Shown in pieces: positions 36,836 through 57,117 of a DNA stretch of 64,000 bases. Within the stretch, counting starts at the first letter, position 1. Every line of letters begins with the position of its first letter. The position numbers and the translations under genes are program-made. Where the stretch lies: positions 16,416,001 through 16,480,000 of the forward strand of contig NC_092569.1 in the NCBI RefSeq assembly GCF_037975245.1. The letters run 5' to 3'. Source of the DNA: Apostichopus japonicus (taxonomy: Eukaryota > Echinodermata > Holothuroidea > Aspidochirotida > Stichopodidae). The notes below the pieces were generated by a model, which worked only from the letters and a program-made list of their open reading frames with translations, was not told where the DNA came from and ran no database searches.

Positions 36836-39800
36836 CTGCGAAAGGAAAACACAAATACGAGATCAAGTTGACAGGGATCTTCATTTTATTATTTGTTTAC
36901 ACGTTTGACTTAAATACTGGATGCATCATTAGGACTTTTTTGGATACCTTGTTGGAGATAATGAACAAGCTATACAATATAGTGTGAAAGAATCCTTCTA
37001 AAATCCCTCTTGTTGATAGTTAATTCGTTGTGCTTCAAACAGTACTTGTGGTAATCAGATGTGATATCACAGCTGTCAATAATGTCTGACTTTCAGTAAA
37101 TCCCCATTTTTTGATCAATTTGTATTGACTTTGCATACCCCCAAGGTACACTGTTAAAAAAAATTCTGTTAAATTACTTTTTTTTTTTGGTAACGCAGTT
37201 TCCAAACAAATCCTGTAATTTAACAGAACATCTGTTTTAATAATTTTACATTTCAAGACTGTTTATTTTACAATCCATTTTGTTTTTCAAATTACAGAAA
37301 GTTACTGTAAAATAATTTTACAGCCCTTTCTGTTTTTTGCACAAACTGTTTGGAGTTGTAAAATTACAGTAATTCTGTAAATTGTTAACGTTAATTTACA
37401 CACTTTTTACGTTTATTTACTGTCAGGTAGTGATATTCAACAGGTACCTACTGTTTTTTTTACTAATAATTTACATAGAATTGCGGATTTGAAATGTAAA
37501 ATAACTTTACTCTGTATTTCAAAACATTTCGTTGGTGTTATTCTACAGGATCTCATGCATAAATTAAAGATTGTGAATGTTAATTTACAAACCACTTTTA
37601 TTTGTTTACGGTCAGGTGTTATTATTTTAAAGATTTTTCACTGTAAATTTACAAGATGCTTCATCTTTTTTATTACCAGATGTTATTATTTTCAAGAATG
37701 TTTCTGTAAATTTATAAACCATTTCAGCTTTTTTACTGTCAGTTACTTTCCTTTTAAAGATTTTCACAGTAAATTTACAAACCATTTCAGCTTTTTTACT
37801 GTCAGGTGCAAGTCTTTTAAAAGTATATTGAAGATTTGTCACTGTAAATTTACATGACAATTCAGCTTTGTTACTGCAAGGTGTTTTCATTTTAAAGATT
37901 TTCACAGTAAATTTACATACCATTACAGCTCTTTACTGTCAGGTGCCATAATTTGACATATACTGAAGACTTGTCACTGTAAATTTACAAGACAATTCAG
38001 TATTTTATTGACAGGTGTCATTATTTTCATGACTGTTTCTGTAAAGTTACAAACCATTTCAGCTTTTTTACTACTACAGCTGTAGCTTAAAGATTTTAAA
38101 TATATTAAAGATTTTACACTGTAAATTTAAAAGACACTTCAACCTTTCTACAGGTATTACCACGTGTCAATATTTTAAAGATTGTTTCCATCGTGCCAGG
38201 TGTATTTATTTCACAGATTCTCACAGTAAATTTAAAAAACCATTTTAGCTTTTAACCGTCAGGTGCAAATATTTTGAGTATGGTTACTGTAAACTTCTGT
38301 AACCTTACAAAGAGAGAACAAAAACAAAAATATACATGACAGTTCAAGTTTTATTCCTCTAACACTCAAAACGACGCAAATGTGAAAAAATGAAAAAATG
38401 ATCATTTTGTACTTTTTGCTTCTTACTCCAGTCACATGAGCTGTTCATAGTTTCATGGCTTACATGTTACAGGGATGATTAAATGGGAGCTCATAGATCT
38501 GTTAACAACAATTAGTTAAACCAGGGAGCTAAAGGCTTAGTGATTCCTTGACTACATTTATCTTTGTTGACCTCAGATGACCTTTGACATTCATGTTCAT
38601 GTTCTACTCATGAAGAAGTATGTCACTATTTTCCCTTTTAACTGAAAATGTCAGTCCACACCAACAACATTAATGTGCATATTCTTCCATAAGCAAGCTA
38701 TACAATCAATTTTAACTTGATTGTACCAAGCATTCTGGACTTCCGTTTACAAGTTTTCATGACTGTTGACTAGATAACGTTTAACCTAACCCCAAAACAA
38801 CAGGGGTGAAGTGCTCATCACAGGAAAATTACATACCAAGTATGTCCTCATCTGTCCAGACCTGGAAAAGTTAGCATGGTAGAAGCTAAAATTTGGTTGT
38901 TTAAAAAAAATAAATAAAACCCCATTTTTGGTCAAAAAATTACCCCAGAAACAATAGGTTTCTCTTCTTCCCATAAAAAAAGCTACATGCTTAATAATTT
39001 ACGCTTGATCAGACAGATCATTCTAGACTTATCATGTTAGCAAGGTTTCCGAACTTTAATCTCTGTTGTACAACCTTCTTCCATCCATCATGGACTTTAT
39101 AGATACCTCAAACTGAAATCAAGGAATCAAAAACATGAACAGTGGACATCAGACACTGCTGCTAATATTTAATCATCCATTACCATGCACTAGTAGTGTC
39201 CAACTTCTTCCGTAGAAGAGAACGAGAGTTATGACCATAACAACTTGTTGAAATAGCCAAACTACTGTTTGAACTATCTATCTCAATTCCAAAGAGATAT
39301 CGGCGACAAAGCTGAGTAAAATTTTAGGCTTTCTATGAAAAATATTGCAATTTGAACAACAAATTGCATTTAAGAAGTGTAATGGAGCTTTTAAAGACCT
39401 TTTCAAAGATTAAACTGTCACATAACAAATAAAAAATTAACATCAAAAGCTAAAGTTTTTAAAATACCACCCAGTTTACTGAACTTCTTTATTAAGTATC
39501 TGGCATAAACAAATAACTGAAAACTTTTAAATTTATCAGGTCAGTAAATCTCCTTTAAAAAATGTGAACATCACCTGACTCAAAGAAAATCCATAGAAAG
39601 AAAATTGGCATTGCTTCAAAGTCGTTTTCTCAATGTCGTATTAGGATTTCCCTGACAGCAACCAGTTTATAACCCAGATTCCAGTTTCTTCAGAGGAAAC
39701 TGGGGGTGGGGGGGTCTACCCAAGGCTGCAGGTGCAGTCACACAAGACCTTAGACACCTGCTGTTAACTTCCAGGAAACATTTTTCATAACATAAATATG

Positions 39801-42800
39801 AGCAGCACCAAAACCAGCACAGAAATGAGGTAATAGGAACTACCATGATTTCTTTTGGGAGGTTGAAGAGGGGAAATAGGGCACCATGCCACCATTGCAA
39901 AGCACAAGTCTCTCTGACACAATTTAAAGTGCTTCAAGCCATTGATATGATCGCTTGCTACTGCACATTGTTTGAGTGAATCAATTCATTGCTTTACATA
40001 CATGTGTAAAACGATTCTAGGCTATTTTATGTTCATCTCAGAAAAAAACACCACAGCCCTTTAAAATAGGATGGATGGTTAGTAAGCAACAGGCCAGAGT
40101 TAGCATTTAGACATGGTTTTATGCCTATATAAATTTGTAACAGTCTGGTTTAGCAAATGATGCCCATTATTTATGCTAAGCAACATGTACAAACTGACCA
40201 ATATTAATGGTAGCAGCCCCCATTCTTAGAGTCTTTGTTGTGATCCAAACAGGGATTTCTCCAGATAGACAAATTTACAATGCCCCATGCGGAGTAAACT
40301 CCAGCCTCAAGGTGAAGACAGATGTTCTAGATCAAACTATTGGAAAAGGAATCTACTACTGAGAGATGGTTGCAGGGAACAAACTTTGGCACCTATGGCA
40401 CAAAAGATAGGAAACCCAATGACAGGCAATCACAGACATCCATTTCACCCAATACAGTAAGAATCATATTGCCACCTATGAACACTATAAACTTTTCTTC
40501 AAAGAAAGAAAGGGTCACATTGCCATACAATTTGTACAGAAAATGGTTTTGCCGATGGCTTACAAATTTTTATTCGATGGCAAGTTATCAACAATGATCA
40601 TATGAGACATGTAAAAAAACATAACACCTAACCAGACAGACCTATTGAGTGTCCGGTACAGTAACAAAAAAGTAAGGCAATGAAACAGACTTAGATTAGT
40701 TACCTAAATGTTCTAAGTGAAATCTCTTTGAGACACATCGAGTAAACAGCAGTTCAATCAAGTTTGTCATTCTGCAACTGGCACAGAACCTCTGTCATGT
40801 CGTTAATAATTTTGTCACATACGTACTACTATTCCACCGCCTACTTAAGTAGCTTTTGCAGAAAAACTGTACAACCGTACTAAGGACCAACACGTCAACC
40901 TGTCCTACAGGTCCCACTCGCTTTCGAAGTCTTTCATCTGCCCCAACAGAGTGACCACCTTCGGATGCACTGCAGACTTCAGCTTACTTTTAGCAGAGGT
41001 GTTCGGATTAAGTCCAACAAAGCACCTGTGGGATGAACAGGAAAGCATGCATTACAATGTAATCAAATGACTGATGACTTTTGCAAGAGTTGGAGGGGGG
41101 GGGGGGGTAGGCTGTGCACCAAAGTTATTTCCAGCAGCTGATTTGCGATTTCAATTTAACAGCATTATATGATGTTCCATTCAAAATCAACGAACAAGCT
41201 GAAAGGAGCACCACCTAAGGGACATTATGACAAAGTTTCAAGAAAATCAAATGCTATTTGTAGGAGAAGATGCATTTTGGAGCCTATTGTGCCCCTTTAA
41301 TGACCTTTGACCTTCACAAGGTCAAAGATGTCCCAGGGGTCAATGAACAGTGGCCAAGTTTGGTCAACATCCATCAAAATATGACCGTTTGGGGGCCTAT
41401 ACTTCTTTTCACCAAATTTTACTGTTTTAACTCAAACGGCATTATATGACGTTGCATTAAAAATTTACGGACAAGCTAAAAGGAGCACCACCCAATGTAC
41501 ATTATGACAGTCTCAAAGAAACCGAATGCTCTTTGTAGGAGATGCATTATGTAATTTTTCACACAATGACCTATTGTGCCCCTTTAATGACCTTTGACCT
41601 TGACTTTCACAAGATCAAAGATGTCCAAGGGTCAATGAACATTGTGTCCAAGTTTGGTCAACATCCATCAAGGAATAACCATCTGGGGCCAAAAAGGCAA
41701 TTGTTGACAGATTAGCTCAACCAGCATGGGGCAAGGGGGTCCATTATGTGCACAAACCACATTCTAAGAAGGTCTGATGTCTTTGGTGCTGAATGCTAAG
41801 ATAGAAGAAAGCTGAAAAACAAGTGCTACCACTCTCCACCTGACAATCAGTTGCAATACTCACCGTTGAATGAACTCCATGGTCACTGCACCCTTTGCAG
41901 GATATTCTATGTTGAATGCATAGAAACTAGCAAAGAGCATCCCCAGGGAAATGGCAAAATCATTGATCTTGTGGTTGTTGACTGGGACCTTGTCTACAAC
42001 AATCCCGAAATGCCTTCCTGCCAGCAGTGTAGGACCTACCAAAAAAAAAAGATGTCCACATGATTTTCCCAATAAAACAAGTGGGTTCTCAAGCGCCGAA
42101 TTTTGAGAATGGATCTTTGGGCCAAATATTCACTGTATTATTCCGTGGCCTCTAACGAGGACAATAGAGTTGTAGTTTTATAGTAACTGTTTGGAGCCTT
42201 TGGCATGAGACAGTCGGCAAATTTGTAGTCAGTTGGCATATATCTGACTCTGAAAACATGAAAAGGAACATTAAGATACATTTTTTCAAAGGTAAACCAC
42301 ACTCAGACCTGATCATTATTCCGGTGATTTGCTTAAAAATGCTCACTTACCAAAAACAACGATGCAGGGTGATGGCGATCCAATTTCATCTGCCACCTCT
42401 TCAACTGTGTTGGTCTCCTGAAAAAGAGATATCTCCTTATTAATGGGTAAGTAAATGTGATTTGTAATTTTGTAACGATATAAATACATACTGTGCAGTG
42501 CAGTTTGTGTAGTTGTGGTTTTCCAGGCATAAATAGCAGCCAAGAATGGAACATCCTCATAGCTCAGAGAGGATGGATCCCTCTAAGGTATAGAAGGGCC
42601 ATGTATTTTTCTCTGCATGGCATAAGAGGCGACTAAAAGGAGAGGACTTGTATTGACTAACAACAGGAAGACACTAAGCAACACATGTGTATGGTCATTT
42701 TCACAATCAATGTTGTAACTTTCAATATTGGCATTCTTTGATCCATGGAAAGCTAACCAAGTGTGAGATCTTCCTAAGATATTCTACCATTTACTTGCCC

Positions 42801-45800
42801 TAACTAAGGTTTACCAACTTGATCAGGTTTACCTTGTAGATTTGACAAAACAATATGTGTCATGAATCTGCTAAGTTGACATTGCATAATTCAGAGTGGC
42901 TTTCTTTTTTTGGCATATCATTTTATTCATACATTTTTAATTCTCTAAACTTGTTATGCATATGAAGTTCCATTCAGTCTGGGGTTTTCAGAGTGAGCCC
43001 TAGCCTTCAAATGAAGCCTGTCAGCAAATTGTGGTTGAATCCTTGCATCCGACTTAAAGAACTTAGTCAAAAATATACAAAACAATTTGCAGGACAATCA
43101 TTTTAGTGCTGTTTTTGGAATTCTTATTTGGGGGTACACTTAGTACTTCTCCTTTTACACAATAATGTTAGCTTAGGCCACATTATCATGTACTGTAATA
43201 GGAGAAACAGCTCTGGAGGCAAGGGGCGCTACTCCCTTTTGGCTTTTTAGTGCTGAGATGCTTTAGTTCGTGTAACACAACCACACTAAAAAGCCACCAT
43301 AGCCACTCAATTCTTCCGTGTTTGGATATAAAATGAAACGTTGTCTCTTTGGCTAATCAAATTCCATGATTTTTCCAGGTTTTGAAGCATTTTGCCTCAA
43401 ATTCCATGACTTTTCCAGGATTTAAAGCATCTTATTTAAATTCCATGACTTTTCCAGGTTTTCCAGGTAAGGCTGGGAACCCTGCATCTATAGAATTAGA
43501 TGATTCAATTTGATTCTTAATGAAGCAATTTCTGGGTTTTTACTGAATTTTTGAGGCTGATTTAACCCCAGCCTAAACGGACTACTTATTGAATTATTTT
43601 CATAAACGTTTTTCTAATTTCTTCATTTATGCAACATACATACAGTACACAGGTGTTATCCACCAAAAGCAGTACCAATCCATGGTATGATGACAGGCCG
43701 TGCCAATTGGCCAGCCTCCAGTTCCATTACTTGCTGTATTGCAGGATTAATGTTATCTTTTGACCCTTTTATGTTGCACTAACCACAAAAGTACTTTAGT
43801 ACAGAATGTACTGCATGCCAACAAACCACACCCAGTAGGCCCTATAGTTTGAATACAGATATGCCTCTCCATACCAACCTGTGAAAGATGCAAAAAAGAA
43901 CTAGCATCTTCTCCAAAGTAGCTTGCCAGGAGGCAAATCAAGCCAGGCAGCTCTGCAGAATTGTCCTGAGCTTCCAGCTTCATAGTCTCAATGTTCTTCA
44001 GAGTGTCTTTCATGGTGATGCTCTTTGTGGGACACTTACGAAAGTACCGCAGGATGCGGCGCCCTTTGGTCTCCAAGGAATGCTCCAGCGTTGGCAGAAG
44101 ATCGATTCCAACAAGCTCCTTGAAGTGCAAAAACATACCCAATTTTTCTGACAGAAAGGGGTATTCCTCCAACAGACCTTCAATAGTGACACTCTTTGAA
44201 TTAATCAAAGTGCGGATTGAGAAATACACACTTTGCATGTGCGATGTGATTAGGTCTTCATCCCAGTCTTTCTCGCCAGCTGCATACATTTCCTTCAATG
44301 CAAGAATCTTCTCTTTCTGAGTGGCCTCAGTCTCTCCCTCAGGGAACCCTCCCGGTTGCCAGTTTATGCAACCATACGAGTCCCTCTTCTTGATGCGTTT
44401 TGTCTTCGGTTCGGTCACTTCTTCATCGGAAGTACTAGTCATTGAAGATGAAACAGATGGAACCGGGAGGTAGCTTTCATCTCTTTTTAAATTGTTTACT
44501 CTGTTTTCGAGTTGCTTCAAGATAGAAGCCGTGCCATCACCAATAACTTCACCTCCAATGTCGTCCCTGAAACTCGCAGGGTACGCACTCACAACCTTTT
44601 TTGCAACAGTGACCAAGTTTTTCCGTCCTGGGCTTTCATCAAGTTTGAAAATGTCATCACAGATTACTCTGATCATTTCCCTTCTTTCTCTGGGGGCTGG
44701 TCTCTTCTTTTTCTTTAAGCAATTGTTTAAGTTTTTAGACATCTTGCTCCAATGGACTTCGAACGTATCAGCCCAGTTTCCTGCGCACTGGTCTCTGGAA
44801 GGTTGAGTGTGTATGTCTGGTGTCGATTCTGTGGACAGTGTTGAGGTATCCAGGTCAACGGTTTCCTCTCCCTCACTCAGCACATTCTCTGGAGCAGTAT
44901 CTTGGAATGAGAATAACCATACACAAAATAGTTATTAATACTGTAGAACATTAGGTCAGCGCGTAAGTTTGACTGTCCCAAGAATGTTAAGAGCCTGCAG
45001 AGTTAGGTGTTTTTTATTTAATCCAGAAAGCCAAACAGCTTAGTAATTCATTGACTGCCATAGATATGCTTTGTGCAACTTTGATCCTGCTCAAACAGCA
45101 TTGCAGACTTTTGTGTACAAGGTTTTCAGACTTTAGCCTCTGGTGACCTTTGACCTTGACTTTCAGATGGTCAAAGGTGATAAAGCAGTCAATGAACATT
45201 ATGTCTAAGTTGGGTCAACATCCATCGAAGACTAAGCCAGTGAGGGCCTATAGAACTTTTTTCTCTGATTTTACTGTTTCATTGCTACTGACATTATATA
45301 TGAACATCTATCAAAAATATGTGTAGAATTTATAGGAAGCACCACCTAAAGAACATTATAACCCAATTTCAAGAAAATCTATTGTTCTTTGAAGGAGAAG
45401 TAGCATTTTGCAGTTTTTCCAATTTGTTTACAAAATAGCTCATTATGCACCTTAAATGACCTTTAACCTTGACCTTCAGAAGGTAAAAGATGCACCATCA
45501 GTAAATGAACATTGTCTCCAAGTTTGGTTAACATCTGTCAAAGAACAAACATTTGGCAGCAGAAAAAGCAAAAATTTACACTGGATAGATAGAGTGACAG
45601 TCCCATCACAATAGCTCAACCAGCATAGCTGGTTTGAGCTAAAAATCAGAACATTTTAGGCAAAAGATTTGGCATGGATTGGCAATTTATAAGTGCAAAC
45701 TGCCAGGCCGATTTTCTGTTGAGTGAATTTTTACTTTGCATGCCACCTGCACAGTAGACTAGTGTGGATAAGGCAAGTTTTGGGGCAAAACAAATTCCGG

Positions 45801-48800
45801 CCCCCCCCATCCCCCAGGGGTCCCGTACACCTATGATCCTGTCCCTCCCTGTTCTATCTTTATTATTACAGCCAAGTGGTCAAAAAGGTTATGTAGTGCA
45901 CCCCTGCACTGGGCTAGTTTAGATAAATTTTCAATTAAATGCTTTCAAGCAATTGTTTACAGAGGATTTGCCTTCATTGAACAATGACCACTGCAGACAC
46001 AGTGTGGCTTTCATAATGTCCAAGTACATACAGTAAGCCTAGCTGTATTTCTGCCAAATCTAACATGGGTGACATTTGCAGAATTTTACAGAGAATATGG
46101 ATGGGTTATGGTCTCTGACCTGTACTCATTATTGCTATGTGATTGATGTGATTAACTAATTTTGAAAACTGAGGAACAAGGCCCAGAATAACAAAAGTTA
46201 AGGAAAACATGTCTCCTTTGGAGAGTTGGGCTGTCTGCGGTCATGAAAAATAACCGGCATGGTCACGCAATTACTTTTATTTGCTGAAATGATTAAATGG
46301 GTTTACCAGACCTGCCAACTTTTCAAGTGCTAAAACTGTACTTGAGAGACAAAAAGTTGTATTTTACCCCAAAAACTGTATTTTCCCTGGCTGCCAAGAA
46401 TATGCCCGAAGATGCAAGTGTCACATGACAGCATTCGCACTAATTAAGGCTCAAAATTGTGTCATTTGCACATCTACAGCCAGAATCTTCTGCGGGATAA
46501 TCCCGCATAGATTTCTATAGGCCTAGCCCCTGTCTAGGTCTAACTTAGTACGAGGGACTGCAATAAGTGTTCACATAGATCTCGATCGTAGCACATGTGC
46601 AATGTTTGCATGCTCAGTTTATTGTCGCACAATCCAGCTGCACCTGGGAGTCTACTATGACATGCACGTATGCACAACAAATCAGAGTTACGATTGGGTA
46701 AAACTGTCTTTGATTGACATTTTGCAGAACTGGTACATGTCCAATTCTATTATGACCATGTGGAAAATAATGTACAAAGTCACAGCAGATTCAATAGCCT
46801 AGGCCTACCTGCAATTCCACGAAGCCATCACGAACTTTCATGTTCATACGATTAATCCCCTAGGCCAGCTTCCATTTTTAACTTTCCGTATGGCGACGAA
46901 GTCGAAGGAGAAGCTTAAATATTGCCAAAACATTGCGCATTTCGACATGCACCTTATCCATATGGCGGATCTATAGTCCAAGTTTGGCCTCAATCCGACT
47001 TTCCCTTATTGTACTGGGTGTATATGTACGGAGTGCCATGTGTGCCAGAAAACTATGTTTAAACCTAACACTAATATACACACTGTACATATACACCCAC
47101 TACAGTGTATGTACTGTACACACTGTACATACATGTATGTACTGGTTGAAATTCATTTTATAGTAAAGTCTACTATTTCAACCAATTGTATATGTACAGT
47201 GTGTATATTAGTGTTAGGTTTAAACATAGTCTTCTGGCACTCATGGCACTCCGTACATATACACCCAGTACAGTGTATGTACTGTACACACTGTATACAT
47301 ATGTATGTGCTGGTTGAAATTCATTTTATAAGTCTTCTAATTTAATGAATTCAACCAGGAGAAAACAAGTTCATTGCTAATAGTATTTTTTTTATATAAA
47401 ATTAAAAACTGCACAGTATTGAAGGTATTGAGGTACTGTATATAATTATCAATTAGTAGCAATAAGCCCCACTCCTTAATGTAGGACTGTTCAATTATAT
47501 TGCATGGGCAATTTTATGGTACTACAACAATAGGCTTCACCCCTTCTTATAGGACCATTCCATTAAATTGCACAGGTAAAACATTTTTCCTTTTAATCTT
47601 AAAACCTCTTTTGTGACAACTTGAATGAAAGGAGAGGCTACATGAGTGTAGAATAAAATTACACCTCCCACTGCTACACACCAAATTTCAACTTGATAGG
47701 AACAATCATTCTGGACTTATTAATGTTTACAAGGGTTTTAAACTGACCTCTGACCCAACCCCAAAACAATAGCTATCATGTACTCATCATGGGAAAACAC
47801 ATACCAATTATAAGCTTCATCCATCCACGTAGGGTCGACGTTATCGTGTTTACAAGCTTAAATTAGGCAAAATATCAACTTTTCACAATTTTCCCATTTT
47901 TTTAAACAAAACCGAATTTCAGCTAACTGTTAGACTTACAGTGAAACCCACAGCAGCCTCGCAGTGGATGAATCATGTCATGAGCAAAATTTAGAACTAC
48001 ACTGGAGCCTGGAACAGCCGGGGACGGTGAAAACCAAAACCAGGACTCGTAGACCTGTGCAGCAACTTATTCATAAATCACCATCACACTACCTCTACTA
48101 GTGCAGGGGTGTAAGAGAGGTTTTGAAAAAAGTCTGCAAAAGTGGTAAGTTCGGTCGAAGTTAAAAAATCGGAATTCCGCGTAAAATCAGAGATTTCACA
48201 GCCCTGACTAGTGTAAGAGTTGCTGGGTCACTATGAACAACACTGACATTTACCCAACTAAATCGCACGCTCAGAAATAAGGAGTTACCAGGAACAGGCA
48301 AGATCACAGCCTATTTAGCCCCCATTCCCCCCCCCCCCCCCAATATTTTAACCAAATCGCTGCTCATGCGGTACATTTTGTGTCCATGTGATATTGCCAG
48401 TGTACCATAGTGACCTTTGACAATATATCATTATCATATTATTATAATGTAAGCATGAGCTGGCTTCTTAATTGAGAACCAGGCTCCAGTATTACTTAAA
48501 TAAAGTATATTTACCTTTACCTGCAGTTGACCACGCATCTATGAGTCTTCTGCGCTGAATAGGCTTCAGCATAGAGAGGTCGTCCTCCGTAACAAATCTC
48601 AGATCACCCACAGATTCAACTCCAACATCCACAAGTTGATCCAGGACTCCATTTGCAAGTGCCAGTGGCAAGGATGGCAGTGCATCACTGATAGCAGACT
48701 GAATGGGACTAAGTCTTACAGTATCGGATGAATCATATGCATCCATTTTTCACTTACTATGCTTTACCTGACCTGTATAGTAAAACCAAATTAAAACACT

Positions 48801-51800
48801 CAAGCAAATGAGTGCATGTGTATGCATGCCACACATTAAAGCAGGCTACTACTCCACTGCAGGCTGCAGACTGCAGCGTATGCTTGATCTGTATCATACT
48901 CAAGCACTAACGACCTAATTTTTCATGCCTAATACACAATATTTATTAGCATGCAAAAATTATACTTTTGTTTAAAAAAAAAAAAAAAAATACCTTAGCA
49001 CTAGTGCTTGGCTTGTCTAGTGGATGTAGGCCTAGTTGCTAACTAATAATGAAATTTACAAAAATAGTTTCTCATGCTTTTGTCTAAGAGTGAAGGACTA
49101 CGGCAAAACGCAACACTTAACAATAAAGACGCGGGCTTTGTGATTCATTGCCTGAAAGTTTTAGCTTGCTGGTAGTAAGTGCAGGATGCACAGTTTGCAT
49201 TATCATCTCTGCATGTCTTCACAATGACACTAAGTTGTGAAACTATAAAACTGTGTGGTAATGGTGTATACATTGTAGGCCTATACTATGGATGTGATTA
49301 TGACACAAAATTATAGCATTCAGACTAATGTTTGTCAGTTAGTCAATTGTGTGCTGTACCTCCTATACCACAGATAATGCAAGGTTTCCAGGTAGGCCTA
49401 CTGCACACCAGTGGTTTAAACCTGTGGTCAGCAAACTAGAGGTCACAACCCTTCTGAGGGTCCCAAAAATATTTTAAGGGTCTAGACAAAATTGCAAGGG
49501 AAAAAATATTGCCAAGTTTGTCATTGAAAATGGAGTGATTAAAGTCTAGAGCCAGTGATCTGCATCGTGTTGTGTTGCCGGTACTCCACATCAGTCAGAT
49601 TTTTGTCCACAGTAATGGTGTTTCTCATGTAATATTAAACTGAAACCGAGGTGGTAGTACTAGGCACTGCCTTGACATACGGTGAACTGTTTAACGCATA
49701 TAGTTACACAGATTTTAAACTGGCAATCGTTGGTAGGTTATCGCTCAATGACAGCAGCTAAGTACGCTTGAGAATATTGCAGTGCTATGCTTATATTATC
49801 GTCATTTAGCAAACATTACCATGATGTTGTATACCGTCCGTCTACTACTTTATCTTCACGCACTATTCACACATGCCATTTGTCAAGTTGCATCAAAGCG
49901 GGCATGGGGCACAAGCTAACAAGGCCAATGCAGCCATGGGTCATGGGGAATACTGCCTCATAACAAGTTCTGAGATGGACACAATCCAATTATTCAATGG
50001 TTCAAGCTGGAACGCTCAGGCCAAGATTGTACTTCGCCCTCAAGGCACATTATGGGCAAAATAAAGGCAGGATTAAAAAGAATGGCCGTTTGGAGAACAC
50101 TAGTTAAAAACATGCTTCTAATTGCACTTTAAACCGGTTGTCCAAACGTGTAGGTTTATCACCGGTTTACTGCCCTGACCCCTGGTACTATCAGACACGT
50201 GCAGTGAAGGGTTCTAGGCCTACAAGTTCAGATTGGCATGTCTTAATATGGGATTGCGATGAATATTTCTAGCGTGTCTAACAAGGGACGAATGTTAGAA
50301 AAAATAGCGTTCTCCTCTTTGGGAAAGAAATTACTGATTTTCAACTTTTTATTTATTATTATCAAGTGTGTTTAAAGAGTAATGACGGTTTGAGTAAGAA
50401 CTGTAACAGTAACGCTATGAGCGGTCGGCTTGTTTGTACTCTTGGCCTATTTGCACTCTGGACATACACCCTTGTAACTGTGAACTGGCTTATTGCTTTA
50501 GGCTGGCTTTGTCAATATATACCTTAAAATCAAAATCCCAGAGTCAGCTTTGCAACCAAGTGCTGAGACAATCAAGGACTTACATTTTCTTGAGCATGCC
50601 AGGGGTACTAGGAGTGTGTCATGCAATTAACAATTACAGTATTCATGTGTCTTTGTTTTTTTTTTGCCTGTGAAATGTATGCATATAAAATGCCCCCCTC
50701 CCCTTTTAAGTGCTGCTTTTAAGTGCTATATAATTTAGAAGGGACATGCCACCCCTATACTGTCAGGCTATACCACTGTCACAAAATATTCAATATACAC
50801 GAATGGTTGCAGGCTGTATACACAAGCAACTGAAGGTGTGCCTTGCATCTCTTTGAACCAAAACAAAATTTACTCACCATTATTTACACAGAGTAAGAAA
50901 TCAAAAGTGAAAACAGTTATGTTTTAGAGGGAGCAGAAGTCTTCCTCGAACTAGATATGCAGTCAATGGATAATAGTCCGAAAGCTTTGATATATTCACA
51001 CACACTACATTATTGGAGGGATGCAGCATATATACTCCTAAACCTTGAAGTATGGTGGCAGAGTGGAGCTTTACTAAAAGGTATGCTTCGTCACAGACCA
51101 AAATGGTCAGAAGTATGCAACCAAACTTCATGTCCTCACAAGCTACAAATAACCCTGCACTGTACTCGGTACCACTAACGTGCATTCTTTGACTACAAAT
51201 GGCCAAATCAGTATTTACATTTGCTTCTAGCAAGGCAGCCCTGATCTCAAGACTGAAAATCTCAGGATTCAAACACGTTCCTTTTTCAAGAGAGAACCTT
51301 GATTGAAACAGATTCCCAGCACTGTTATATGCTTGCAGCATTTGGTGTCTCTCTGACAGAGTATGTGTTATGTTGAGGAAATTATGGCAATTTCGGCTAC
51401 ATCTTTTGAAATATGAGTGCTTGCTTTCAAAACGAAGAGTCCACAGTCTTATCAATGGTCCGAGCTTGACTATCAATTCAGGATAGTGACTGAGAAAGTG
51501 ATGTTTGGGCCTGAGATTTACACAAGGAAAGACACTTTTCCTCCCATCGAGATACTCTTCTATCAATACTCTGAGGTAACCTATTTCATTGAACGTGATC
51601 TGGGGAGCACAGACATACTGAACAATTTCTCGTAACAGTAAAAACAGCTTCCAAACAATGTCACTTGGGTCACAAACCTCCTGACCAAATAAAATTGGAA
51701 ACAACTTCATCAAGCACCAATTCTCCACTGCTTGTCCACCAAGCCTGGTAGCATTTTGGTTGATTTTTGCAGGTTTATTATTGATGTCAGGACCAATAAA

Positions 51801-54800
51801 CTTAAACTGCTCCAACTTCCTATTCAAGTTTAGGTAAGTAAACCACTGTTTTTCCTTCACCCAGTAATTTATGAAGAGCGCCAAGTCGTAATCTACCACA
51901 CCTTCGAAAAGATCATGCCCCAAGCAAGGTGGTAGTCCAGGAGAACACACATGGTAATATGTGAGAGCATTGAAATGCGAGTCAAACTTGATCCCTTGAT
52001 AAATACTTTCATTAGATTGCCGGAGTTGTTCCACACACCTATTATACTCATCAGGAGTTCTACATTTACCGTTAGCATAAGGAGCACCAGAGAGAAATTC
52101 CTGCCTTGTCAGCAAGCAAAACCTACAAAAATGTTGTGCAGTGAAACTCTCAACAAACCCACCAATGGTGTGTGACCCTAAGTTGTCACCCATGATACAA
52201 GCCAGGGACCCTTTAAATCTGCGACCATCTTTCAACTGTATACCACTTTCCTCTAATGATTTTAAATCTTCTATGAGTCTTTTGAATACCTTTTCTTGAC
52301 CAAACTGCTTTAGATCACTTTCTTTGCAAAGAAGTGCAAGCTGCAATGACTCAATTGATGATCGATACTCGGGAGGGATATTGCCAAGTGAATAATACAC
52401 GGCCAATATTTTGTGTTTTTTTTTCGCAGAGCCTAGAGGGTTCACTACTTCGAAGGCATCTTGAAACAACATAACAGGGACTACATTGCTATCACTTTTA
52501 AACAGTTTGTTTTCCCTGAAAACTTGCCCATCAGTGATGTCATTTAGTGCAGAGGGATTTGTACAATTTGCCTCAGATTTTAACGGCGTTGACTCATTTT
52601 CAAGGAGGAGCTTAATGGTGTCCAAAAGAGGAACATAGTGGCAATGATGTATTTTACCTGATATGCCGCTGCCAAGGGCAATAGATACTGGGCACACAAA
52701 GTTCAATGACTTGTAGAATACTCTTCTTGTATGTTTGGTGCGTAGTTCACCTTTCACGCTATCAATGGCAAGCCACTCATCTTCGGAATTTATATAAGCA
52801 ACCAATTGCTCTATGAAATCTTCACTTACTTGTGCCTCCTTCAATTTACTTGTAAGTTTCAATTCAAGAGAGGCCTTGCAAATATCATGAATACTTTGCA
52901 GCTCTTCCACAATAGTCTGTATTGTTGACTCTGGAACCAATTTTTGTCCCTGCAGCTTAAGCAAGAATAATGCAAAACTTTTCAAAAAGTCAGTTTTAGA
53001 AGTGTTTTCCTGTGGAGCTTCATCATTTGATTTATCTAGATCTATGTGACAGTCAACTTCTTCCAAACATGGGCTATGGGTGGGGCTAGGGGACATAGAG
53101 TGGTCATCAATGGGACTGCTCAAAGATGGGGCACCATTTGTTAAATGCGTTTTGTAAACATTGTTGATGCTTTTCACACCCCACTTTCTATGGTAACGAG
53201 ACAAATGAACAGCAAATGTCGTCTTTTTGGTAAATTTTCTTTTGCACTGGCTAAATGGGCAGTTTATAATTTTTCCATCATCGATATGTTTTTTAAGATG
53301 CCAGAAGAATGACTGCAAATTGGGGCATTCTTTTTGGCAAAAGGGCAGTGCACACTTGAGCGATTGGTTTAATGTGCAAAACTGGCTTAAGCCCAGAGTA
53401 GAAGCTCTAGAAGATTCACCATAACTTAAGTTACCCCTAGGCACCCTAGACCTATGATGTTTTCGAGTGATGTGAACTTTCAATGAAGTGAAAGTCCTAA
53501 AAGTATACTGGCAATTTTGGAAGCAACATGGAAATTGAACATTTGCCAAGTTTCGGTGGCTTCGTAGGTGGCCTATGTAGTTAGCGACACTATTAGTTGA
53601 GGTTTTGCATATAGTACATAAACCAATAAACATTATTCCCCATGAAAAGGCAAGTAGTGTCAGGATATTCATATGGCCTGACGTTTCCTGTGTCTTTGTG
53701 ACTGTAGGCCTAGGCTAATGCATACTGTAGATTACAGCTAGGCATATTCATGAGGACGTAACTCATAGTAGGCCTAACGATAGTCAATGAGCTTGTTACT
53801 TGTTACTGTTAGGAGCAGGCAACTGCAATTACTTAACGCTAAACGTTCGCTTCGGCCTAGACTTGAGCCTAGAGGCCCGGCCCAGGTAAATTACGCGTAA
53901 CCTAGCCTACACACACTTCAGTCACTCAGTAGGTTAGGTTAGAGTCGGCTTAGCCTAACTTGTTATATTACAATAGTGTACTGACTGCGACAACATGTGG
54001 CATACATGACACATAGGCTACAAACTTAAAAAATAGTGGTTTAAGGTCATCAGGAATTGTTTAGTCGAATTACCAAAGATGCAGAAAATAATTCGTCGCC
54101 TTAATTACTGGTGATAGTAGATTTTTAGAAGTAGTAGTCTCAAAACAGCCCGATAACAGTTCCGCTTCAGCAACCGAACCTAGCGATGAAGATACTGTAC
54201 TGCAACTGTTCCGGCCGCGTAATTTTTTTTCCCAGGACCCCCAAGTACCGTCCACACATACATGCACAGTATTACTACAGTATACTGCAGGCGGGGCGAG
54301 CACGCGGCACACAATTTATACCGGTTCGCGCCGGATTCGTTACGTTTTATTACCCCATAAAGGATAAGTGCTAGGGCCAATCAAATTCTGCACATCGGTT
54401 AATGTAATATTTAAATATATATGTTTGGCTCAACAATCCTAATTTTTATCGGCAAGAGTTTTACCAGTCCCAGATTATTCTAAAAATACATTGCCTTGAC
54501 TCGAATTTTAAACTTTCACTCTGCGGATTTGTTTGTAATATTCTGAAAACAAAAAGTTTTTCCTATCTTTATTTGAATAAAATATCAGCCTAATCTAAAA
54601 ACTTGTTTGCGTTTCACATGATAGTTAAATAACGACTAATCAAACTGTACAGTTTTGGTAAAGTAATTTATTCTCCTTTTTTATTTTCTTCTAATTTCTG
54701 GGTTTTCTTTTAAAATGAAATGAAAAAGAAGACACATAAAATACTCTAAGATTTTACTTATAATTTTTTTGAGGAGCCAAACTCTGTCAACTTCTGCATA

Positions 54801-57117
54801 CATTGCTTGTCTTGTACTCTTGTATGAAATAAACAAATAGTCAACGGTAACTTCTATTTAGAGTTCGCTGTGGTTGGCTCTCATGCCCGACCCTTTTCCC
54901 GCGCGCGCCAACAAATGAACGCCATTTGTTAACTCAGACATGCAACTGGAATTAGATATTAAAGTTTTCGATGCCACGTTTGGCCCTTCCTTCAATGCCC
55001 GCGGGACAAAAAATTACTTCCCCTAAAAAAGTGCGCTGCTATTCGGAGCTGCGAAGCATTTTGCGTTACGGGTGGACAGTCCCACTGATATTTTAAGGTA
55101 TATTTTTAAGGTATCAGTGGCGTAGTCGTAGTTATTATCAGGGGCGACGTCAGCGACGGGGGTTCCGGCCATCGATGGGCACCCCGGAGACCCCGCCTCC
55201 CCCCGTCCGAAGAGGAGTGGCCCCTAGTTGGAGAGAAAAATGGAAAAACGTCGGGAGCCTTGGCCAAAAAATTGTGAAATAAGTAGTCTAATGTAAAAAC
55301 AGTGGTCACCCAGTCTGGGAGAAAGCGTAAAAGCGGGGAGGCCCGGAGCAAAGTTTACGAATAGCCTGAGATTACAAATAAAGTATGCCTCCGCTTTTCG
55401 TACTCAGTTGCAGGTACCTAATTAAAACAGGGGCATATCCAGAAATTGTCAATAGGGTGGGCGCAAAGCATGACTGATCGCCGTCCTGGGGGGAGTCTAA
55501 GGGGATGGGGTGGCCCCCTCCCCTTTGGGAAATTTTTGCCTCTGCAGAAGGGCTGAGATGCCAAATGGTGCTATATGTTTAATGTGACCAATTTTCAAGC
55601 CTATCTTTTGCAGGATTTTTCATTTTTGTGCTCATTTCTTGGGGTCATGACGGCCAATAGGGGGGGGGAGGGCGCCTCCCCCTGGATCCGCCCCTGATTA
55701 AAACTTGAGACATATACATGCTTGAAAAAAATACAAAATCGGGGAAAACAGGATAGAATATGAGAACGTAGGAAATGCAGGTGATACTGAGGTGCGCATT
55801 TCTAAAAAAAAAGAAAAAAGAGGCGCTATAGGCCTAAGGCGCAAAATTTAAGAACACCAACCATCTAAAATCAAGTCGGGGGTACAACGCAGACAATGGT
55901 GCTACATGTCTGCGTTGTACTGCGCTGTACTGCAAACCAGAATGTGCAACTATCGGCGAACGACGGCAAATGTGTGCAGCACGGTCAAACCTTTATGTGC
56001 TCCAAGGCGCACCGGAACACATGAAGCAACTATAGCAGCTCGGCACTGACGCAACTCGACTGAGTCGATGTGCAGATGTAGCAAACATTTGTAATTTGAC
56101 TCAGTTGCAAGCAGTCGCAGTACGCAATTTCTTACAAGCCTAAAGCACAACTAATATGTTAAAGAATGTCTATAAAATAAATAAAAGAGTTTCCTTTGGT
56201 CAAAATACAAACTATCTGTCAAACTGCGATCATTTTGTAAATGGGAATATAACTTAACATATTTTTTTACGGAATTGTTATTTTACAAACACTTTGTGAA
56301 AAAGTCGTAAAATAACAGAACGTAATATTTAAAAACAGGAAATTATGTTGAAGAATTACAAATACATTTGTGTTCTGTTAATATCAACAGAATATGTAAA
56401 TTGACATGTAATTTTACATAACTATATTGTTTTACAGTCCCTTTCTGTAAAAAAAAAATCATATAACAGCAGGATATAAAGGTAGAAAAACAAAAACTAA
56501 TGTTTCCTAATTGAAACATTTTTGATATGTAATATTACAGTTTACGTTCTTCAAATTACAGTTATATCATCAAGTAACAGACAATTTATGTCAAATAGAG
56601 AAAACACAACATTTCTGTAAAAATATGCCTGTAAAATTACCGATTTTTTTTTAACATGATGCAATTTTACATAACTGTTGTTTTACAGTCCTTTTCTGTA
56701 AAAAAATCTTATAAAAGCAGGATATAAAGGTAGAAAAACAAAAACTAATGTTTCCGAATATAAACATTTTTTATATGTAATATTACAGTTTACGTTCTTC
56801 AAATTACAGTTATATCATCAAGTAACAGACAATTTATGTCAAATAGAGAAAACACAACATTTCTGTAAAAATATGCCTGTAAAATTACCGATATTTTTAA
56901 CAGTGTAGGTTATATACGATAGGGTGAAAAATCAAGCAATAGTTTTGTATATGTTTTTGTTTAGTGTAAAGTAAAACTATGACATCACACTTGTTTTCAT
57001 CAAATTTATTTATTATACCAAGTTCCTTACAATTTCAGCTATTAATATATGGATAACTTTTACAATTACTGGAAAATTAATGACAAACCGTGTGTTTCAG
57101 TTGTCATTGGTAGTTTC

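Follow-up and report, generated by a model that had tools for sequence, protein, structure and literature searches.

Why does a gene that appears to encode a sterile alpha motif (SAM) domain lie directly behind a transposase gene in the sea cucumber Apostichopus japonicus, and what would its product do there? The question is raised by a 64,000-nucleotide stretch of contig NC_092569.1 (C9:16416001-16480000; the window, whose numbering we use), in which a sequence-only reading had placed a five-exon gene with an N-terminal SAM domain and basic stretches downstream of a transposase, on the same strand and within the same inverted ends, as the second gene of an animal CACTA element with subterminal repeats. 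Numerous fish and invertebrate genes carry the name SAMD3-like, and the second gene of the window may be related to vertebrate SAMD3 and the fish SAMD3-like genes, with which it would share an N-terminal SAM domain and an overall layout. By searching the whole genome (671.6 Mb, 35 contigs) for both genes and for the ends of the element, we find in the window a cut-and-paste transposon of CACTA (En/Spm) type that has CACTG ends and carries two genes. Judged from sequence comparison, the second gene almost certainly belongs to the element as a constant component, passed on together with the transposase over a long divergence and kept under purifying selection.

A two-gene transposon with CACTG ends

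The element ends on both sides in CACTGTTAAAAA, read inward, with TA on either side, and comprises the following features.

37147..37148, no strand: target-site duplication TA, identical to the 2 bp at the opposite side
37149..56905, genes on the minus strand: complete transposon, 19,757 bp, bounds from five copies at unrelated sites
37149..37177, plus strand: terminal inverted repeat on the 3' side of the genes, CACTGTTAAAAAAAATTCTG..., from the five-copy comparison
37357..38131, no strand: ten subterminal repeats of the TGTAAATTTACA type, from a pattern count
40905..41025, minus strand: second gene, exon 5 with the stop (gene model)
41864..42035, minus strand: second gene, exon 4, conserved C-terminal domain (gene model; found in other families)
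42351..42417, minus strand: second gene, exon 3 (gene model)
43879..44900, minus strand: second gene, exon 2, conserved core with two basic stretches (alignment and gene model)
48521..48746, minus strand: second gene, exon 1, SAM-like domain (Pfam, structure model and gene model)
50901..53672, minus strand: TNP2-like DDE transposase, 923 amino acids, single exon (single open frame and profile comparison)
53190..53618, minus strand: C2H2 zinc-finger region of the transposase (Pfam and family profile)
56395..56418, no strand: two more TGTAAATTTACA-type sites on the 5' side (pattern count)
56877..56905, minus strand: terminal inverted repeat on the 5' side of the genes, CACTGTTAAAAATATCGG..., from copy comparison and DNA search
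56906..56907, no strand: target-site duplication TA, matching 37147..37148

Four further copies (one on C15, two on C17 and one on C12) were read at both ends and have terminal bases identical to those of the window element, while the flanks of all five differ from the first outside base onwards. In this group, family A, four of the five sites have a TA target duplication and the fifth has TG. The 5' end of a sixth copy was located by DNA search at C8:15311221, roughly 2.3 kb beyond the region first read. Identical termini, unrelated flanks and 2-bp duplications together make the window element a real mobile unit, and five copies of its transposase are full-length matches at 100% rounded identity and free of stops.

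The subterminal repeats of the sequence-only reading are present well above expectation: allowing at most one mismatch, the window contains 12 TGTAAATTTACA-type sites against 1.03 expected, a count that none of 100 shuffles reaches, and in family A the heptamer CTGTAAA/TTTACAG occurs 8 times per 900 bp at either end against 0.11 inside. A loose pattern combining ends and repeats was uninformative in the window (43 matches, 42.7 expected). In five element copies the 5' subterminal region is itself doubled (56514-56650 and 56762-56898), at a spacing of 248 bp.

What places the element with CACTA/EnSpm is the combination of CACTG ends, a transposase homologous to TNP2, conserved acidic residues and a 2-bp target duplication. 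A profile of seven transposase family members matches three Tnp2 proteins of the same genome, which are Pfam hits above the cut-off, with a probability of 98.9 and an E value of 1.3e-17 over 402 columns. Taken alone, the window protein misses the Pfam Transposase_21 cut-off (E 0.0057, 16.3 of 28.6 bits), and just two of seven members match at E up to 0.1 (best 5.3e-4). Residues D405, D496 and E749, presumably the catalytic DDE residues, are invariant across the seven aligned families, as are C516 and C519. The finger region is matched in Pfam by zf-met (E 0.001) and zf-C2H2 (E 0.0024), neither of which reaches the Pfam cut-off, and the transposase family profile matches the five-finger protein GLI at E 2.3e-6.

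Downstream of the transposase, on the same strand and with both genes inside the inverted CACTG ends, the gene model recovers the five exons of the sequence-only reading, and the span proposed there (40905-53672) is the extent of the two genes together. The second gene runs on the minus strand from 48746 down to its stop at 40905 and is predicted from sequence to encode 535 amino acids, with GT-AG borders at four of four introns and a continuous reading frame. Exon 2 is conserved down to 26% identity to the window among eight aligned sequences, and where other families were checked the C-terminal exon stands behind it in the same exon order. NCBIfam returned no credible match for exon 2, and its single-sequence structure model, at a mean predicted local distance difference test (pLDDT) score of 45.8, was not used. 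The introns hold repeats of their own: an 86-bp inverted repeat, 98% complementary, in intron 1 (47010-47272), perhaps a nested miniature element, and dispersed repeats, 61-86% alike, in intron 4 (41166-41713) and intron 1 (45137-45583).

Pairing of the two genes across the genome

All locus counts given here are lower bounds, since the scoring covered a portion of the transposase candidates (49 of 400 in the first search, 56 of 359 in the second). The window transposase as query gives 61 matches at at least 47 loci, and second-gene exon 2 as query gives 100 matches at at least 67. A second gene lies within 25 kb at 42 of the 47 transposase loci, where 0.23 random pairs would be expected, and in every one of these 42 it is downstream and on the same strand, across a gap of 1.6-8.3 kb. 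Adding searches with a distant family gives a merged table of 63 transposase loci and 75 second-gene loci, in which exon 2 follows within 12 kb downstream at 47 of the 63 transposase loci, exon 2 or the SAM exon at 48, and both at 37. Seen from the other side, a transposase lies upstream of 48 of the 75 second-gene loci, against at most 4 in 2000 circular shifts.

An exon 2 match is missing at 16 transposase loci. Thirteen of these came solely from the second, distant-family search, and the three of the thirteen that were fetched all have a weaker match to the core downstream (E 4e-12, 1.1e-4 and 2.2e-4) with a weak match to the C-terminal exon behind it (E 0.004, 8.4e-4 and 1.3e-5). Of the other three loci, at C16:42.55, C17:21.81 and C2:30.67 Mb, the first two were inspected: the SAM exon is present at C16:42.55 Mb, and at C17:21.81 Mb one lies 18 kb downstream, past the cut-off. 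Among the 27 second-gene loci without a transposase match, 13 were looked into and 12 show transposon sequence. These comprise eight of nine fetched loci and four others (C8:1.87, C9:32.93, C13:8.71 and C14:4.40 Mb) at which the 3' end of the element lies 4.8-6.7 kb downstream of the second gene. In the fetched set, L033, L036, L040 and L041 have the transposase in broken pieces upstream of the second gene; L034, L035 and L037 are copies of the L036 element that share its 5' start and lack its transposase; L038 is likewise a deletion copy, in this case from family I, and retains its 5' end; and no transposon sequence was seen at L039.

L034, L035 and L037 are 93-96% alike in their longer mutual matches and apparently share one internal deletion, as would a derivative that multiplied. 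At C12:6002007-6006926 and C12:6012989-6017908 one family is present as two decayed copies, inverted relative to each other and separated by about 6 kb.

Both ends could be read, with both genes between them, in eight families (A, B, C, D, E, H, I and P), and they conform to CACTGTWA...TWACAGTG. The families besides A are located as follows.

Family B: C5
Family C: C9:29.27 Mb
Family D: C17:36.48 Mb
Family E: C12:18.9 Mb
Family H: C10
Family I: C14
Family P: C12:30.93 Mb

Each of these seven starts with CACTGT and has equal 2-bp flanks, TA in all except I, which has TG; over the eight families the flanks match at 12 of 12 sites (10 TA, 2 TG). The ends of the seven were chosen by eye among several CACTGT/ACAGTG sites, by their likeness to A and with the flanks visible, so that their flank matches are not fully independent evidence. 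The 5' end is backed by a second copy in B, I and P, and the 3' end of C coincides with the site given by a search with the ends of A. Elements of families A to I measure 10.7-19.8 kb. In M and O, the same terminal pattern found no ends.

The ends themselves lead back to the second gene. A 162-base stretch from the 3' end of the window element, used as a genome query, gave 29 rows, of which six were opposite-strand matches at the same family A ends and were dropped; the 23 places that remain all lie 4.2-6.7 kb downstream of a second-gene locus. By comparison, Pfam Transposase_21 marks 22 places in the genome (15 above the cut-off). All of them are more than 200 kb away from the transposase loci of this clade, and a second gene was found within 25 kb of none of the 22, although a copy too divergent for our queries would escape. 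By these searches the second gene is specific to this transposase clade, which is itself related to Tnp2 proteins. No relatives were found in viral contigs or in contigs of prokaryote genomes, as expected for an animal element.

The two genes have also diverged in step. Between the window and family B, the proportions of nonsynonymous (pN) and synonymous (pS) differences are 0.257 and 0.790 in exon 2 and 0.233 and 0.739 in the transposase; since pS is saturated we quote no ratio, and the comparison indicates that both genes are under purifying selection. The distance matrices of the two genes over seven families (A, B, C, D, E, G and I) correlate at r 0.83, a value that 5 of 5040 labellings attain, counting the true one. 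The co-linear pairing at 42 of 47 loci and the CACTG ends and 2-bp duplications of eight families give strong support, within this genome, to the proposal of the SAM gene as second gene in an animal CACTA-like element. A class of unexplained animal genes thereby gains a concrete context, as its members travel with a transposase inside the same ends.

The N-terminal module

The SAM domain proposed at the start of the protein is weak by sequence, and its modelled structure comes closest to SAM domains. Pfam matches exon 1 of the window to SAM_TNK at E 0.02 and, among seven members, finds SAM_TNK in two (best E 0.002), SAM_2 in one (E 0.073) and CARD in one (E 0.0026); a sequence search of the PDB with the SAM exon gave nothing credible. 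A single-sequence model of exon 1 has a mean pLDDT of 74 and four called helices. Foldseek found no match to this model at E 0.001 or better, with SAM domains in many of its top rows, and in a second structural comparison the top rows were SAM domains at Z up to 6.5 (root mean square deviation 2.2-2.5, 57-59 residues), followed in lower rows by helical folds of different kinds, among them the RAD51 N-terminal domain. As a Z below 8 can mean a common arrangement, we call exon 1 SAM-like.

Other families seem to carry a different module in this place. By eye, the open frame after the transposase looks ubiquitin-like in M, N and O, and in family I it resembles the second half of a CIDE-N domain (Pfam CIDE-N, E 0.21). 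Family P has a stretch that matches the M, N and O profile at E 1.7e-12 and shares a single open frame with the beginning of the core, which ties the ubiquitin-like module to the second gene. The ubiquitin-like or CIDE-N-type stretches, as judged by eye, are these.

L030:1212-1571
L031:1296-1775
L032:1649-2161
L036:2025-2243, minus strand
L018:3779-4027

In the transposase tree, one clade (support 98, with 71-100 inside it) unites the families in which the sampled member has a SAM exon; I is placed next to this clade, and M to P fall outside it, their grouping supported at 62. The N-terminal module of the second gene thus seems, from sequence, to have been exchanged between SAM and a ubiquitin-like or CIDE-N-type domain, and with the SAM families monophyletic a single exchange is the simplest reading. 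SAM, PB1 and CIDE-N domains can assemble head to tail.

A SUMO-interaction-like motif, S-D-[DS]-T-[IV]-x-[LI], can be made out by eye before the SAM domain (48700-48746), and likewise with the other module at L018:4544-4729 and L030:2029-2214.

The role of the second protein

A SAM-domain gene of this kind is probably a transposon helper. The best explanation as a whole is a two-gene CACTA-like element whose second protein is an end-assembling accessory factor, a reading to which we give an even chance of being right; that the protein acts in assembling the ends is itself a tentative proposal, held at a little short of that. The accessory factor would combine an N-terminal self-association module (SAM in one clade, apparently ubiquitin-like or CIDE-N-type in deeper ones), a conserved helical core with basic stretches and a conserved C-terminal domain. 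It would self-associate into an oligomer with the transposase and form a complex on both element ends, helping to join ends that lie 10.7-19.8 kb apart, as TNPA is thought to do in plant En/Spm. The ends may be paired through SAM oligomerisation. Indirect support for this comes from the deeper families, in which another module seems to have taken the place of SAM, since such a swap points to self-association as the trait under selection.

Several results weigh against this explanation. The basic stretches noted in the sequence-only reading are present, two in number, but the protein as a whole is acidic (isoelectric point 5.1). The exon 2 core has eight weak Pfam matches (best E 0.0067), none credible, and a PDB sequence search (best E 0.061) gives it no credible solved relative. 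In families I, M, N, O and P the SAM profile has no match in the member sampled, so SAM is not universal. Pfam finds nothing credible in the N-terminal modules of M to P, where the replacement was judged by eye, and a PDB sequence search with the ubiquitin-like module and that of family I likewise gave nothing credible. The heptamer is enriched at one or both ends in five of seven families (both in A, one in B, C, D and H); at the other end of B and D and at the 3' end of E its count merely equals the highest of 300 shuffles, and in I no enrichment is seen at either end, so that E and I, though both carry the second gene, show no clear enrichment. Finally, a transposase with C2H2 fingers of its own could bind the repeats alone, and it may be the transposase rather than the SAM protein that does so.

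These fingers are also a point for the main rival, in which the second protein chiefly controls transcription of the element or works against its silencing and the zinc fingers of the transposase pair the ends. SAM domains occur in chromatin regulators, and in families A and C the 5' end, close to the likely promoter, is densely set with repeats. TNPA offers a precedent, as it can both reactivate a promoter that is methylated and repress one that is not (PMC1636069, in the portion available to us). In B, D and H, however, the repeats are denser at the 3' end, far from the transposase promoter, and we regard a mainly regulatory role as rather unlikely. Co-divergence with the transposase and strict co-linearity would suit a physical partner, and the SUMO-interaction-like motif beside the N-terminal module in several families fits as well with an obligate transposase subunit that serves the catalytic complex, nuclear entry or target choice and does not bind the subterminal repeats; this we think improbable.

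Many DNA transposons acquire host pieces, and one may ask whether a host SAM-domain gene was captured by chance or merely lies near transposases by chance. The locus without transposon sequence among the 13 looked into, L039, would fit such an origin. Against it stand the 12 of 27 second-gene loci lacking a transposase match that do show transposon sequence (eight of nine fetched, four by the 3' end of the element). The gene, moreover, recurs in the eight families whose two ends were both read, is under purifying selection and keeps the same exon order where checked, and we hold a chance origin to be very improbable. As the main explanation, chance adjacency and host-gene hitchhiking are rejected in view of the co-linear pairing, the circular shifts, the 3'-end matches and the 0 of 22 Transposase_21 places with a second gene.

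The explanation by an end-assembling accessory factor can be extended beyond this genome. All animal SAMD3-like genes would then be accessory genes belonging to a deep clade of CACTA elements with CACTG ends, with an ancient core and one N-terminal exchange from a ubiquitin-like or CIDE-N-type domain to SAM, both being classes that assemble head to tail, and vertebrate SAMD3 would be a domesticated helper; this we find on balance slightly doubtful. Should the SAMD3-like label hold true, gene sets with that name count transposon copies as host genes. Among open-licence PMC papers, we found none that combines sterile alpha motif with CACTA, or with transposase and terminal inverted repeat, though a Repbase entry that mentions the second gene may exist, and titles and the starts of abstracts yielded nothing relevant that ties SAMD3 to transposons. 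At least one clade of animal CACTA relatives has a conserved two-gene design, laid out unlike the plant one, and such an element opens direct tests of mobility, oligomerisation and DNA binding.

Among known systems, the animal TRC elements are related to CACTA and make 2-bp target duplications, as described in the available parts of PMC1636069 and PMC4298943, and they have a Transposase_21 domain (PMC1636069). SmTRC1 resembles the window element in these respects (PMC1636069), whereas TRC terminal inverted repeats begin with CCC and those of the window element with CACTG, which sets the latter apart from TRC as there defined. SmTRC1 measures 4.5 kb and makes further products by alternative splicing, and the portion of its description available to us mentions no SAM domain (PMC1636069). 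In plant En/Spm, according to the parts of PMC2613891 and PMC1636069 at hand, TNPA recognises subterminal repeats, and TNPA and TNPD are both required for transposition. The window element is like En/Spm in its CACT-type ends, TNP2-type transposase, subterminal repeats and two gene products. It differs in having CACTG rather than CACTA ends and a 2-bp target duplication, compared with 3 bp in a soybean CACTA element (PMC2613891, same limit). Where En/Spm derives its products as splice forms of one transcription unit, the window element has a separate five-exon gene downstream, with a SAM-like domain in the second protein and C2H2 fingers in the transposase.

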